A DNA stretch of 33,664 nucleotides from Candidatus Kaiserbacteria bacterium (GCA_020428685.1 JAGQMJ010000010.1:1-33664), one strand, 5' to 3'; shown: positions 15,490-19,968, counted from the first letter of the stretch. Notes: a model not told the origin generated them from the sequence alone. Numbers and translations are program-made.

Positions 15490-18441
15490 TTAACGCAAAG
15501 CGATAGTTCGATTTTTTGTAAAATTCTGCCACCAAGATTTTACTTTGCTCCAAACACCGGGGGCTTTATCAATCGTTACAGAAGCAGGTTCAGTTGGGTC
15601 GTCGGTAAGATTTTTGTGACTATCGACTTTCTCTGCCGGTCGATTGTTCTGGGACAATATTACTGGCGGATTTTCATTCTTTGGTAGTGCAGGCGGGATG
15701 TTGTTAGTTTCAATAGCTACGTGATTTTGTTGCCGCATCAGATCTTTGAAGATAGCTATTTCTTGCTGCTGTTTCAAAGTGAGTGGGAATTGTTCAGTAT
15801 TGCCGCACATTATTTCGTTGATTTTCTTCTGAGTTGTGTAATACACAAATCCAGAATCTTTTTCTAGTCCCCAAGGACTCAAGACTTCATCTTGATAAAG
15901 TTTCTGAAAACCCCTTACTGCCAGCTCAGTAGCAACGTCAAAAGTACCGTTGATGACAAGGTTGGCGTTTAGGTGTGTGTTCAAGAAAGTTTGTAGTTTG
16001 ATTACTTCAACAAAATTATTGTTTTCTCCGTAGCGCAAGTATTCGGTTAGGTATGGTGTGCAGACGGAGCTTGAAATACCAAGGACTCTTCCTCTTGGTT
16101 CGACTCCCAAGTTTAGTGTGTGGGTAGAAATGTGTGATTCAAAAGGGGATTGATACTTCGTCTTGCGACTACCGTGAAATCCGACCAGCTGAGCGTGATT
16201 TTGGTAGGTGCCGGTTGCCATGCTTGATTCAAATTCCAGACTATAGGTGATAGTGATAGTTTCCCAGTTTTTTATTTCTCCTAGAGGCCAGGTTTGTTCT
16301 TGGATAATTTCGCCAGCGGTATTTTCTAGGTAGTCAGTCAGGAGGGCATCATAGAGCTGGCCCCCGTGATTGAAAAGTTTGATGGTGTAGTCGACAACGT
16401 CTCCTGGTTGAGCGTAGTCACGATTGGCTGTTTTTTCAATCGTAAAGTTGGCAGGGAAAGTGGAGCGAGTTGAGTTTGATTCCTCGGGTTTTTCGCCAAC
16501 ATAAATGGTCACTATTTCTTCATTGTCAGAAAAATCAGCGTCAGTCTGAGTGCTCCTAACTCGGCTGGTGAGAGGGATTGCAGAGACTGTATTGCGGTCC
16601 AAAGCGTTAGAAACCACGGCGGTGTAAGAAAACTCTCGAGTTTCTTTTGCTGCAATATCTCCAATCTCCCATAAATTGCTGTTGGTAGAAGTTGATAGAG
16701 GAGAATTGCTTTGAAAATCTAAAGCGTTATTTTCAAATATATTTTCTAAGGTCACGTCTGACGCCACGGAGTCTCCTTGATTGAATACGGTGTAGGTGTA
16801 GGTGACCATGGAGCCAGGCATAATGGGGCTGTCTGGCGATGATGCACTTACGCCGAGCCAAAGATTTGATTGACCGAAGCTGAGATTGCCGCTCCAATTG
16901 CCGTAAATATTAAATATCATATTCGACCAGTTGCTGCCGATGACGTTGGTGTTGGCTATGTTTAGGACTGAGCTGTTGGCGTAGCTATTGCCTGTGCTTA
17001 TGCTTGAATTGTCCCCGCTAGCTTTGTTGTCTCCGCTCAAAGCAAAGACTTTGACGTTATTATTTATGACTGCTTTGTTTGAAGTGGTTTGATTTAAGTT
17101 TGTAGACGAGGTTTGTCCGCTGCTTTGGCTGCTAGATATAATCTCGATTCCTTGGTCGGTTTCTCTCCAGCTTAGTCCAGCTGGTAGGCCGGTGATGGAT
17201 CCACTCCAGTCACCGTGTACTCGTATCAGCATACTAAAGGAGCCGCCGCCGATAATATTTTGGTTGACGGTGTTGGTGACTGAGCTGTCCGCATAATTAT
17301 TGCCGGTATTGATAGAGGTGTTGTCGCCAGATGCTTGGTTGTTGCCGCTGTCGGCTGTGGTCTCTAGGGTATTGCTTATGTTTGCTTCGTTATCAATATC
17401 TAGATTTAGGTTGGTGGCAGGCGCCGCTTTTGTGATTAAATTATTAAAGAATGAACTATTGGGTAAAACTATGTCTCCAGCAAAATCTGAGAAATTGTTA
17501 AATACCAGGAGTAAATAATTTGAGTCAGTGATGTTCGTGTTAGCGACATTGATTATATTGGCTGAAGCGTAAGTGTCGCCGGTCGAAATGTTGGCTGTAC
17601 CAGTCGCGCTATTGTTGCCGCTCGTGGCTTTGACTGTGATGTTGTTTTCGATGGTTGCGGTGTTGTCTGTATCTACAAAGGTGTTAGCGTTGTTGCAGCT
17701 TGAAAGGGAGCAGCTGTCGGTTGATTGGGAGGTGTTGAATTGATTGTATGCCAAGTCAAAATCAGAGCGCAGGTCAAAATTTTCGTAACCAAGAGTACTG
17801 TTTACGAATTTAATAAGCCCAGCTGAGTTTACGATATTTGTATTTACTACATTTAAAACATCAGTGTAGGCAACTGCCTGACCAGTATTGATGGTCACAT
17901 TTCCGGCTGAGGCTTGATTGTCTCCGGTAGAGGCTGTTGTGGTGGCGTTTGTGCTACTGGTAGCTGTGTTGCTGGCGTGAATTGCGAGAGTGTCAGGATT
18001 TGGGGAGGTGGTGGCTGAAGAGCTGCTGGTTGAAGCAGTCGTATCTTGTCCGGCAATACCAGATTCTTCGTTAGAATCAACAGCCTCAGAACTGCTGGCA
18101 GATTTGCTTGTTTCTATATCGTTGGAATTGATTTCATTTTTTATATCAAGACCGGCTACGGCATCGCCAGTATCTATGGTGGTAGTTCCAGTATTTGCCG
18201 CTTCATTGGATTGGGTTTGAGTAGATTGGTCTTCGCTTTCATCTTCCGGTTCTTCTTCTGGTCCGCTTACTACTTCTACAACAGCCTCAATAATTTCTGC
18301 TGTTTCGTTTGCAGTCTGTTCCTCTGTGTTTTCCGTCATACCAAAAACAATAGTAGGCGTTATGATTTGCAGGATTAATAACCCTGCTACAGCTTGGGCA
18401 GTGATTATGGTCCAAATTTTGTTATTTAAGTAGCGAAACAT
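15490..18441 (-). CDS. Large repeat-containing cell-surface protein with DUF11 and peptidoglycan-binding domains
   Basis: This 983-aa secreted protein has an N-terminal hydrophobic signal/anchor (about 10-34) and an acidic Ser/Thr-rich linker. Four full repeats follow at about 157-207, 256-305, 348-397 and 448-502, with a fragment at 77-105. Each has the pattern N-x-A...SG(D/N)N-x-A(S/T)G...I-(N/S)TG-(x4)-A-(x3)-V-x-N-x-x-N-x-N. Two DUF11-like beta domains follow (about 530-648 and 664-775), then a PG_binding_1-like module (about 793-879) with flanking Cys, and a basic tail. The repeats probably form extended beta structure and the PG module ties the protein to the wall. It is translated with a 20-nt overlap after the gene at 18422. 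Function is unknown; adhesion or S-layer-like surface display is likely. Confidence 0.85.
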   Translation of the reverse strand: MFRYLNNKIWTIITAQAVAGLLILQIITPTIVFGMTENTEEQTANETAEIIEAVVEVVSGPEEEPEDESEDQSTQTQSNEAANTGTTTIDTGDAVAGLDIKNEINSNDIETSKSASSSEAVDSNEESGIAGQDTTASTSSSSATTSPNPDTLAIHASNTATSSTNATTTASTGDNQASAGNVTINTGQAVAYTDVLNVVNTNIVNSAGLIKFVNSTLGYENFDLRSDFDLAYNQFNTSQSTDSCSLSSCNNANTFVDTDNTATIENNITVKATSGNNSATGTANISTGDTYASANIINVANTNITDSNYLLLVFNNFSDFAGDIVLPNSSFFNNLITKAAPATNLNLDIDNEANISNTLETTADSGNNQASGDNTSINTGNNYADSSVTNTVNQNIIGGGSFSMLIRVHGDWSGSITGLPAGLSWRETDQGIEIISSSQSSGQTSSTNLNQTTSNKAVINNNVKVFALSGDNKASGDNSSISTGNSYANSSVLNIANTNVIGSNWSNMIFNIYGNWSGNLSFGQSNLWLGVSASSPDSPIMPGSMVTYTYTVFNQGDSVASDVTLENIFENNALDFQSNSPLSTSTNSNLWEIGDIAAKETREFSYTAVVSNALDRNTVSAIPLTSRVRSTQTDADFSDNEEIVTIYVGEKPEESNSTRSTFPANFTIEKTANRDYAQPGDVVDYTIKLFNHGGQLYDALLTDYLENTAGEIIQEQTWPLGEIKNWETITITYSLEFESSMATGTYQNHAQLVGFHGSRKTKYQSPFESHISTHTLNLGVEPRGRVLGISSSVCTPYLTEYLRYGENNNFVEVIKLQTFLNTHLNANLVINGTFDVATELAVRGFQKLYQDEVLSPWGLEKDSGFVYYTTQKKINEIMCGNTEQFPLTLKQQQEIAIFKDLMRQQNHVAIETNNIPPALPKNENPPVILSQNNRPAEKVDSHKNLTDDPTEPASVTIDKAPGVWSKVKSWWQNFTKNRTIALR

Positions 18442-18793
18442 AAAGTGAAATTAGAACTTCTAATCTTTTTATCAGCGTCTTTAATTGCTCGTTGGTAAGC
18501 TCTCTTTGTGTCGTGGTTGAGTGTTGTGTCGAGGTGGTAGAGGTTTGGAAATTTGAAGAGTAATAAATCGCTTCAGAACTAGTAGTGGACCAGTTCTCAA
18601 CAACCTCTCCATTTATAATTGTTTGAACTGATGCGTGACTCTGCCCGCCAGAACTATTGGCGCTTATGTTTACCGAGTTTGTGACGACGGTTTCTGCCTG
18701 AGTGAAGGTTGGATTGATTATAAGAAATACCAATAATCCGACTAGGATGGTTTTTAAATTATCAAATCTTTTTTTGTAAAAATTTGTGATCAT
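18422..18793 (-). CDS. Small secreted protein sharing the surface-repeat motif
   Basis: A 123-aa protein from the ATG at 18793, which has GAGGG 8 nt upstream; a longer frame to 18868 would run through a hairpin. A signal peptide (KKRFDNLKTILVGLLVFLII...TQAE, about 6-33) precedes VNISANSSGGQSHASVQTIING, half of the repeat unit seen in its two neighbours. A Ser/Thr-rich stretch and an amphipathic C-terminal helix (ELTNEQLKTLIKRLEVLISLY) follow. It overlaps the large surface protein gene by 20 nt, so the products are probably made together and may interact. No known family. Confidence 0.75.
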   Translation of the reverse strand: MITNFYKKRFDNLKTILVGLLVFLIINPTFTQAETVVTNSVNISANSSGGQSHASVQTIINGEVVENWSTTSSEAIYYSSNFQTSTTSTQHSTTTQRELTNEQLKTLIKRLEVLISLYVSLLK

Positions 18794-18805
18794 ATATTTC
18801 CCTCG

Positions 18806-18838
18806 CTCAGGCCTCGTCATGAAATGACTAGTCCTGAG
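18806..18838 (-). terminator. Intercistronic hairpin in the surface-protein operon
   Basis: CTCAGG ... CCTGAG closes an inner imperfect stem (GTCAT/ATGAC). No U-tract follows on the minus strand, so it is more likely an mRNA-stability or partial attenuation element than a full terminator. It lies between the Gly-rich gene and the 123-aa gene. Confidence 0.45.
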
Positions 18839-18877
18839 TGGAGGGAGGGACAGAGTCCCTTCCACCACGCTGTCACA

Positions 18878-19645
18878 TTAAGCGTCCACCTCAACTTCGT
18901 CTTCATCGTCGCCATTTCCGACTCGGACTACGTTTCGGTTTACTATATTGGTAACCATTCCGTCAGCTCCGGCTGCACCGGTGCGGATTGTGCCGCCAGT
19001 ACCTCCAGAACCACCGTTGCCTCCATTACCACCATTGCCACCCTGGTTCATCCAGAACCAGGCAAGCCATGACCTACTACCTAGTGCATCGCCACCTGCA
19101 CCAGCTCCGGCACCTTTACCGCCATCAACTGTGTTGCGTCCGGTGTTGGCATCAACATCTAGTGTTGTGCCGACTCTAGCTGTATTGCTAGTGTCTACAC
19201 GCATTAGAGTACTATCGCCACTAAAGTGGAAGAATCGTGAGAATCTATCCATCTCGTCATCATCGTCGCAGCCGCAACCTTCGAAGGTTACATTGTTACG
19301 ATTGACGTCATTTTGAACAGTACCAATAGCGGTAGCGTTGCCAGACGTGACGCTGCCAGCATCTCCACCGTTGCCGCCATTACCACCACGACCAGCGGTG
19401 CCTCGAGTCGCATTGCCACCGTCGCCACCATGGCCTGAGCCGCCTCCGTCAGCGTGGTTGCCGCCAGAGTTGGCGTTTACTGATACGTTGTTGGTGACAG
19501 TACCGTTGTTGCTGGTTCTTACTACAGTACGGTCATCGTCCCCACCCATAAAAGCGGCGGCTTGAAATGTATAAAGACTAAAAGTGCTGGCGGCCAATAC
19601 TCCGGCCAAAGTAACAGCCGACAATTTTGAAATTGTTTTTGACAT
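18878..19645 (-). CDS. Secreted glycine-rich repeat protein
   Basis: A 255-aa protein with a signal peptide (residues 1-31, ending FQAAAF). Two Gly-rich blocks (about 66-93, with GGNGGNGGDAG, and 201-226, with GGNGGNGGNGGSGG) recall PGRS-like or polyglycine-helix regions. Around them are the same motifs as in the large neighbour: VTNNVSVNANSGGNHADGG, SGNATAIGTVQNDVNRN and VDANTGRNTVDGG. The middle has CGCDDDDEMD and the C-terminus is strongly acidic, which could bind Ca2+. It is the first gene of the operon, behind a leader of about 290 nt. AGGAGG lies 15 nt before the ATG, an unusually long spacing. Surface role inferred; no named family. Confidence 0.75.
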   Translation of the reverse strand: MSKTISKLSAVTLAGVLAASTFSLYTFQAAAFMGGDDDRTVVRTSNNGTVTNNVSVNANSGGNHADGGGSGHGGDGGNATRGTAGRGGNGGNGGDAGSVTSGNATAIGTVQNDVNRNNVTFEGCGCDDDDEMDRFSRFFHFSGDSTLMRVDTSNTARVGTTLDVDANTGRNTVDGGKGAGAGAGGDALGSRSWLAWFWMNQGGNGGNGGNGGSGGTGGTIRTGAAGADGMVTNIVNRNVVRVGNGDDEDEVEVDA

Positions 19646-19934
19646 AAATATTTTTTATTACCTCCTGATAACTGTTAAACCCTGTTCTTGTCTTCAAATT
19701 GAGGCAAGGAACAAATGGTGAACGTTACATCCCGGTATCGTTCACGGATTGGCATAGAATTATTGTCCCTGACAATCTGTGAAAGCTACAGAGTACTGGG
19801 CGCGGGTATGAAGTACGATAATAAAAAACTACGTAAAAACGTAGTTGAGAAACTGTGTGATTGTGACAGTGTTGAATTGTAGTGGAGAGAGAATTGAATC
19901 ATAAGAAAATACTATGACTCGTTTCCCCGACGAG
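19646..19934 (-). ncRNA. Long structured 5' leader of the surface-protein operon
   Basis: From the predicted start near 19934 to the ATG at 19645 there is no ORF but several stems on the minus strand: GGCTCG/CGAGTC near the 5' end, the attenuator-like hairpin 19827-19846, ATTGTC/GACAAT, and GTGAACG/CGTTCAC around a 14-nt loop. A leader this long is exceptional in a window where most mRNAs look leaderless. I cannot match it to a known riboswitch class. Confidence 0.5.
19827..19846 (-). terminator. Attenuator-like hairpin in the operon leader
   Basis: AACTACG/CGTAGTT (7 bp) with a 6-nt loop is followed on the minus strand by six T residues, the form of an intrinsic terminator. It lies about 90 nt after the start site and 180 nt before the first gene. 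Confidence 0.55.
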
Positions 19935-19940
19935 CCAATA

Positions 19941-19968
19941 ATTATATTCCTGTCATTCTAGATGTCAA
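19941..19968 (-). promoter_or_regulatory. Near-consensus promoter of the surface-protein operon
   Basis: On the minus strand TTGACA (19963-19968) and TATAAT (19941-19946) are separated by 16 bp. Both hexamers match the sigma-70 consensus exactly, the best promoter in the window, implying strong expression. Confidence 0.8.

Follow-up and report, generated by a model that had tools for sequence, protein, structure and literature searches.

A predicted all-beta repeat in a putative three-gene surface-protein operon of Candidatus Kaiserbacteria and other Patescibacteria

The operon and its repeat

The window analysed here is a stretch of 33,664 nucleotides (nt) from an ultrasmall bacterium, Candidatus Kaiserbacteria (GCA_020428685.1 JAGQMJ010000010.1:1-33664), and its minus strand carries an operon of three genes for predicted secreted proteins. 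Transcription runs from a gene for a Gly-rich protein of 255 amino acids (aa), through one for a 123-aa protein, to one for a 983-aa protein, and then to valS; tsaD is the upstream neighbour. Judged from sequence, the Gly-rich and the large protein clearly carry one common, undescribed beta-strand unit. The repeat and the operon are uncharacterised, and our literature search found no description of this operon among the papers it covered. They probably form a coat or fibre on cells attached to other microbes, because the gene set recurs in roughly one in ten of the genomes that we sampled from the phylum. All repeat, gene and feature coordinates below count over the whole window.

18878..19645, minus: secreted Gly-rich protein, 255 aa; carries the two split units and ends in an acidic tail
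18422..18793, minus: small secreted protein, 123 aa, ATG start at 18793 (open reading frame and family alignment)
18422-18868, minus: 148-aa open reading frame from a GTG, enclosing the 123-aa protein
15490..18441, minus: large secreted repeat protein, 983 aa (open reading frame and domain searches); signal peptide, half repeat, 4 full repeats, 2 DUF11, PG_binding_1-like domain, amphipathic C-terminus

The small gene and the start of the large gene overlap by 20 nt, and the N-termini of all three proteins read like signal peptides.

The repeat unit is about 58 residues long, with the consensus N-x-A-x-I-x-N-x-x-x-V-x-A-x-T-G-x-N-x-A-x-(G)-...-I-x-T-G-D-A-x-A-x-A-N-V-x-N-x-x-N-T-N. An earlier note on this DNA had described the shared repeat with the spacing TG-x4-A, which as a regular expression has zero matches. 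The coordinates and open reading frames agree with the note and the repeat is real, but that spacing is one residue too long. With TG-x3-A-x3-[VI]-x-N-x2-N-x-N there are 5 matches in the large protein and 1 in the Gly-rich protein, where shuffled sequences lead us to expect 0.0005 and 0.0025. We aligned the four large-protein repeats (alignment A1), made them into a profile and searched it against the genome itself. In the large protein it recovered four full repeats and a half one, and in the Gly-rich protein two split units, in agreement with the four to five and two copies that the note had counted, and at E<=1 it had no match outside the window genes. The repeats and domains of the large protein, all on the minus strand, are these:

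18109..18207: half repeat, aa 79-111 (profile, 12.4 bits; confident strands in the model)
17797..17970: repeat 1, aa 158-215 (profile)
17491..17664: repeat 2, aa 260-317 (profile)
17215..17391: repeat 3, aa 351-409 (profile)
16903..17079: repeat 4, aa 455-513 (profile)
16504..16851: DUF11 domain 1, aa 531-646 (PF01345, E 6.1e-14, in two stretches)
16324..16434: DUF11-type repeat 2, aa 670-706 (TIGR01451, 32.2 bits, cut-off 24)
15895..16008: peptidoglycan-binding-like domain, aa 812-849 (PF01471, 19.4 bits, cut-off 23)

A second profile was made from 152 repeat units that came from large proteins only, those of the window and its relatives. The Gly-rich protein scored 39.7 bits with it, and the best of 50 local shuffles scored -2.5. 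A Gly-rich profile recovered 45 proteins and all except L060, a small-gene product, outscored every one of their own shuffles. The invariant positions of the repeat are kept across families. Neither the repeat nor the Gly-rich and small proteins matched any family in Pfam, NCBIfam or PHROGs, and searching the PDB by sequence gave no credible match to the repeat.

The DUF11 modules reported for the large protein stand, since PF01345 reaches 52.8 bits against a curated cut-off of 24.6. The wall-binding module reported with them stays below its cut-off here but exceeds it in orthologues (PF01471 at 27.4 bits in L043 and 25.3 bits in L047). Among relatives the C-terminus is either a peptidoglycan-binding-like domain or a membrane segment. 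Because the anchors differ while the repeat part stays constant, the repeat part is likely to be the working core.

In the Gly-rich protein, a Gly block splits both units mid-way, and the same pattern is seen again in most orthologues, where the block sits at a constant point of the unit (half 1 covers about profile positions 1-24 and half 2 about 15-47). Its features, again on the minus strand, are:

19439..19510: unit 1, first half, aa 46-69 (profile)
19355..19456: Gly block 1, aa 64-97, GGX pattern (period analysis)
19289..19354: unit 1, second half, aa 98-119 (profile)
19268..19279: GCGC cysteine motif, aa 123-126 (alignment A3)
19118..19189: unit 2, first half, aa 153-176 (profile)
18980..19042: Gly block 2, aa 202-222, GGN/GGS/GGT triplets (period analysis)
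18920..18991: unit 2, second half, aa 219-242 (up to the conserved VNxNxTRxxR position)
18881..18919: acidic tail GNGDDEDEVEVDA (not conserved)

The GCGC motif after unit 1 is kept in most orthologues of alignment A3. Polyglycine blocks and an acidic tail had both been pointed out before, and both are present, but the tail is not conserved, as most orthologues end at TRxxR. Over 94 blocks, the probability of a Gly three residues after a Gly is 0.78, against 0.52 in shuffled blocks (sd 0.012), so the blocks do have the GGX/GXX triplet period expected of polyglycine-II bundle proteins. This period suggests polyglycine-II bundles rather than disordered glycine. Directly before Gly block 2 there is also a Trp-rich stretch, SWLAWFWMN (19046-19072, minus), and several orthologues have comparable stretches.

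The small protein ends in an amphipathic Leu-rich helix. It had been said to carry the motif in part, and for this genome we rejected that: it scores -2.1 bits, and 29 of 50 shuffles score as high. A half repeat is detectable in some of its orthologues (L053 with 22.0 bits, L057 with 29.6 and L066 with 19.6).

Predicted folds and the amyloid comparison

AlphaFold2, given an alignment of 37 sequences, modelled the repeat region of the large protein with a mean predicted local distance difference test (pLDDT) score of 79.5 and a predicted TM-score of 0.74. The repeats themselves reach a pLDDT of about 95. Their predicted fold is all-beta, with a comparable series of strands seen four times. The isolated half repeat is also confident in the model even though the linker towards the other repeats is disordered, a sign that it is probably docked. 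The model of the Gly-rich protein has strands that match between its two units (E40-59/63-66/99-112 and E148-167/171-174/220-233, at low confidence), and its Gly blocks have no helices and largely no strands, at a pLDDT of about 55-73.

These models also bear on whether the repeats are just a chance likeness of low-complexity stretches rich in Asn, Thr and Gly, which is what the note had said would count against a shared repeat. The proteins do contain much N, T, S and G. None of the local shuffles scores as high as the Gly-rich protein, though, and there are invariant positions and a confident predicted fold, so we conclude that the motif is not made of low-complexity Asn/Thr runs. We consider chance likeness refuted and give it almost no credit.

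Searches with the repeat-region model as a whole, more than 400 residues, found no structural match at E<=0.001 among PDB or viral models. The best VIA Z was 3.6. A single unit may still have a known fold. At the head of the insignificant Foldseek list was FapC (9nqd) at E 0.33, CsgA was third, and curli (8c50_A) compared with the model at a Foldseek E of 3.1 and a VIA Z of 2.3.

The overall design can be likened to Fap and curli, which have few imperfect repeats, conserved Asn and Gly, and a major protein with a templating one. One alternative takes this likeness literally, so that the Gly-rich protein would form true functional amyloid, with the large protein nucleating its cross-beta fibrils as in FapC/FapB and CsgA/CsgB. 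FapC has three imperfect repeats of one layer each, joined by variable linkers (PMC12392863). Like the Fap system of Pseudomonas, which had that weak first place in Foldseek, the operon encodes two related repeat proteins, and their subunits hold few imperfect repeats that keep Asn and Gly and are joined by variable linkers. The operon differs in that its units are split by a Gly block and the partner is a wall-bound DUF11 protein, and we recognised no Fap machinery beside the window genes. Curli resembles it in pairing a major repeat subunit with a surface-bound repeat protein able to template, again with a weak CsgA match, while the window repeat is longer and two-part, and the host lineage and the export route differ. 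Sequence gave no link to either system: FapC was absent from the PDB chains that profile A5 matched at E<=10, and the window proteins had no curlin match in Pfam or NCBIfam at E<=1. Since the fold matches are also far from significant, and the Gly-rich protein has just two units that are interrupted by Gly blocks, we think a true amyloid is unlikely.

Distribution and variants in relatives

A large-protein profile scan of 84,980 species genomes yielded 39 loci, nearly all of them of Patescibacteria type (Kaiserbacteria, Taylorbacteria, Zambryskibacteria and other Parcubacteria). The search of genomes with a hidden Markov model of the repeats, which had been proposed as a check, did find them elsewhere: when we sampled by rank, large-protein repeats turned up in 17 of 188 genomes at the level of the class and in 33 of 380 at that of the phylum, the majority of the latter outside the class. 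We counted a locus as complete when its large gene had 1.5 kb or more of sequence upstream, which left 36 of the 39. In all 36 a Gly-rich relative lies just upstream of the large gene, and the small gene is found in 25, where it and the large gene often have about 20 nt in common. The order Gly-rich, small, large is conserved among the loci. Within the genus, the large gene occurs in 14 of 38 genomes, and the Gly-rich gene accompanies it each time (14/14). In five of the six cassette-free genomes that we inspected, tsaD and valS are immediate neighbours; in the sixth an unrelated gene lies between them. By this adjacency and the 14/14 co-occurrence, the cassette is present or absent as one unit. 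In other classes the large gene is preceded by a secreted protein with two to four repeats and no Gly blocks, and such a multi-repeat partner lies directly upstream in most of the phylum-sample loci that we fetched.

The repeat could instead be an ancestral beta domain that serves as a spacer or stalk in surface proteins standing side by side, with no mixed assembly and an operon that simply co-expresses them. In the large protein 30-50 residues lie between the repeats, each of which could be an independent domain, and DUF11 is a common stalk domain. The strict gene order and co-occurrence speak against this, as does the partner of two to four repeats beside the large protein across classes, and the half repeat, confidently predicted next to a disordered linker, favours contact between repeats. 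We regard this explanation as somewhat doubtful.

Some relatives have Gly-rich paralogues with N-terminal passenger domains (Ice_binding 3.7e-22, VWA 4.7e-9, PA14 2.7e-5), and these share a terminus made of a Gly block, a half repeat and a TRxxR-type end.

L064 2461-5335, plus: Gly-rich paralogue with N-terminal passengers, ice-binding-like (PF11999) and PA14-like
L055 3253-6049, plus: Gly-rich paralogue with an N-terminal VWA passenger
L038 8276-9292, plus: further passenger-type Gly-rich paralogue
L051 4812-6050, plus: further passenger-type Gly-rich paralogue

Across these four the set of passengers is PA14-like, ice-binding-like, VWA and one without assignment. Because the block-plus-repeat module carries adhesin-like passengers in some relatives, it may be a display platform.

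The Gly blocks and one of these passengers raise the question of an antifreeze or ice-structuring surface system. The ice-binding-like domain is also found in ordinary adhesins. The GGX period is like that of springtail antifreeze proteins, and the snow-flea antifreeze protein is a Gly-rich bundle of polyproline-II (PPII) helices (PMC8409303). The window blocks differ from that protein's polyglycine-II bundle in being inserted inside a beta unit, and a bundle fold is weakly predicted for them. With the PF11999 passenger of L064 found in one relative only, such a system is highly improbable.

A sortase gene adjoins several loci of other classes, and repeat paralogues in L101, L102 and L108 have LPATG or LPVTG tails. 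Two congeners have further genes downstream of the operon, L141 with a CAP-domain protein in addition:

L141 1282-4297, minus: SpaA/SdrD_B-like protein and sortase
L143 175-2299, minus: SpaA/SdrD_B-like protein and sortase

In these sortases, SpaA/SdrD_B-like proteins and LPxTG paralogues beside the operon, the relatives resemble the sortase-anchored surface proteins and pili of Gram-positive bacteria; the window differs, as none of the three operon proteins has an LPxTG-type C-terminal signal with a hydrophobic tail. There is a likeness to TasA/SipW-type fibres as well. In L063 (6496-7647, minus) and L077 (10327-11556, minus), genes 1-2 kb downstream of the operon on the opposite strand encode a TasA/SipW-like leader with one full repeat and a CxC motif behind it, and SipW-type proteins lie near repeat genes in L038 and L100. 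Here the differences are that the three window proteins have no SipW-type signal peptide (TIGR04088, E<=1) and that the L063 and L077 fusions have no match in Pfam or NCBIfam.

Elsewhere in the same genome (G000:C64, L042 34-5713, plus) we saw a gene for an extracytoplasmic function (ECF)-type sigma factor followed by a 320-aa gene, and a protein of 1426 aa that combines SdrD_B-like with PG_binding-like domains and has a C-terminal part 41% identical to the 983-aa protein. This may be a second locus for surface proteins, one that has a sigma factor to itself.

Upstream of the operon, on the minus strand, are a promoter and a leader of about 300 nt:

19941..19968: sigma-70 consensus promoter TTGACA-16-TATAAT (12/12; 0/100 shuffles)
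19818-19945: structured leader of about 130 nt after the promoter (homologues in L043, L044, L045, L047, L048 and L049)
19827..19846: terminator-like hairpin and T run in the leader (conserved in congeners)

About 300 nt separate the perfect promoter from the Gly-rich gene downstream of it. Promoters are strong in some congeners and no better than shuffles in many relatives, so we do not claim the promoter as a family feature. In the leader hairpin, 6 of 7 base pairs have compensatory changes on both sides among seven congeners, which suggests attenuation or a small RNA. A second hairpin, GTGAACG...CGTTCAC, is closer to the gene. The leader element was not found outside seven genomes of the genus and had no match in Rfam, and an Rfam scan of the window returned tRNAs only. 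We rejected a phage, plasmid or virus origin of the genes after finding no match in phages, plasmids or viral contigs.

A proposed wall-anchored assembly

We propose that the cassette is a modular, wall-anchored surface assembly of Patescibacteria, with the repeat as the link between subunits and an anchor, probably forming a coat or fibre for host contact, and we put the probability of this at roughly 0.55. That the repeat links the proteins into one assembly is suggested by co-occurrence, gene order, gene overlap and the sortase/LPxTG versions elsewhere. The role in host contact is a plausible guess from lifestyle.

All three proteins would be exported, and the large one would be held at the wall by its C-terminal part, here the peptidoglycan-binding-like domain and in other lineages a membrane segment or a neighbouring sortase. 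Its row of repeats would make a stack of similar beta layers with a free edge. This edge could take units of the Gly-rich protein, so that Gly-rich subunits would add to one another and to the anchor and become the main material of the assembly. The GGX blocks would stick out from the mid-unit loop, probably as polyglycine-II-type bundles, and together with the passengers they would be the exposed function, with the module as display platform. The small protein may cap or escort subunits. The likely role of the whole is a coat or fibre that contacts host cells or surfaces.

Several results weigh against this proposal. The model of the Gly-rich protein is weak (pLDDT 52), and neither Foldseek nor VIA-align gave a significant match for the repeat region. 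The window's own wall-binding domain is under its cut-off (19.4 vs 23), and its small protein has no repeat detectable with the 152-unit profile against shuffles. We detected no small gene in 11 of the 36 complete loci. No sortase in this genome, which is 88.5% complete, is above the cut-off (best PF04203 17.3 vs 26.6).

A broader version, which we offer tentatively, is that across several classes the beta repeat acts as the universal connector of a self-assembling surface system: the wall-bound large proteins would be templates for stacks of small subunits, and one and the same terminal module would display either glycine bundles or interchangeable adhesin domains to host cells.

It is stated that little is known of how Patescibacteria attach to their hosts (PMC12206443). 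The surface operon described here is defined and recurrent. Its repeat family, as yet without a name, occurs in 33/380 genomes sampled across the phylum, and the operon offers concrete proteins for study. If the assembly model is true, it would add a further design for bacterial surface fibres, one with exchangeable passengers.

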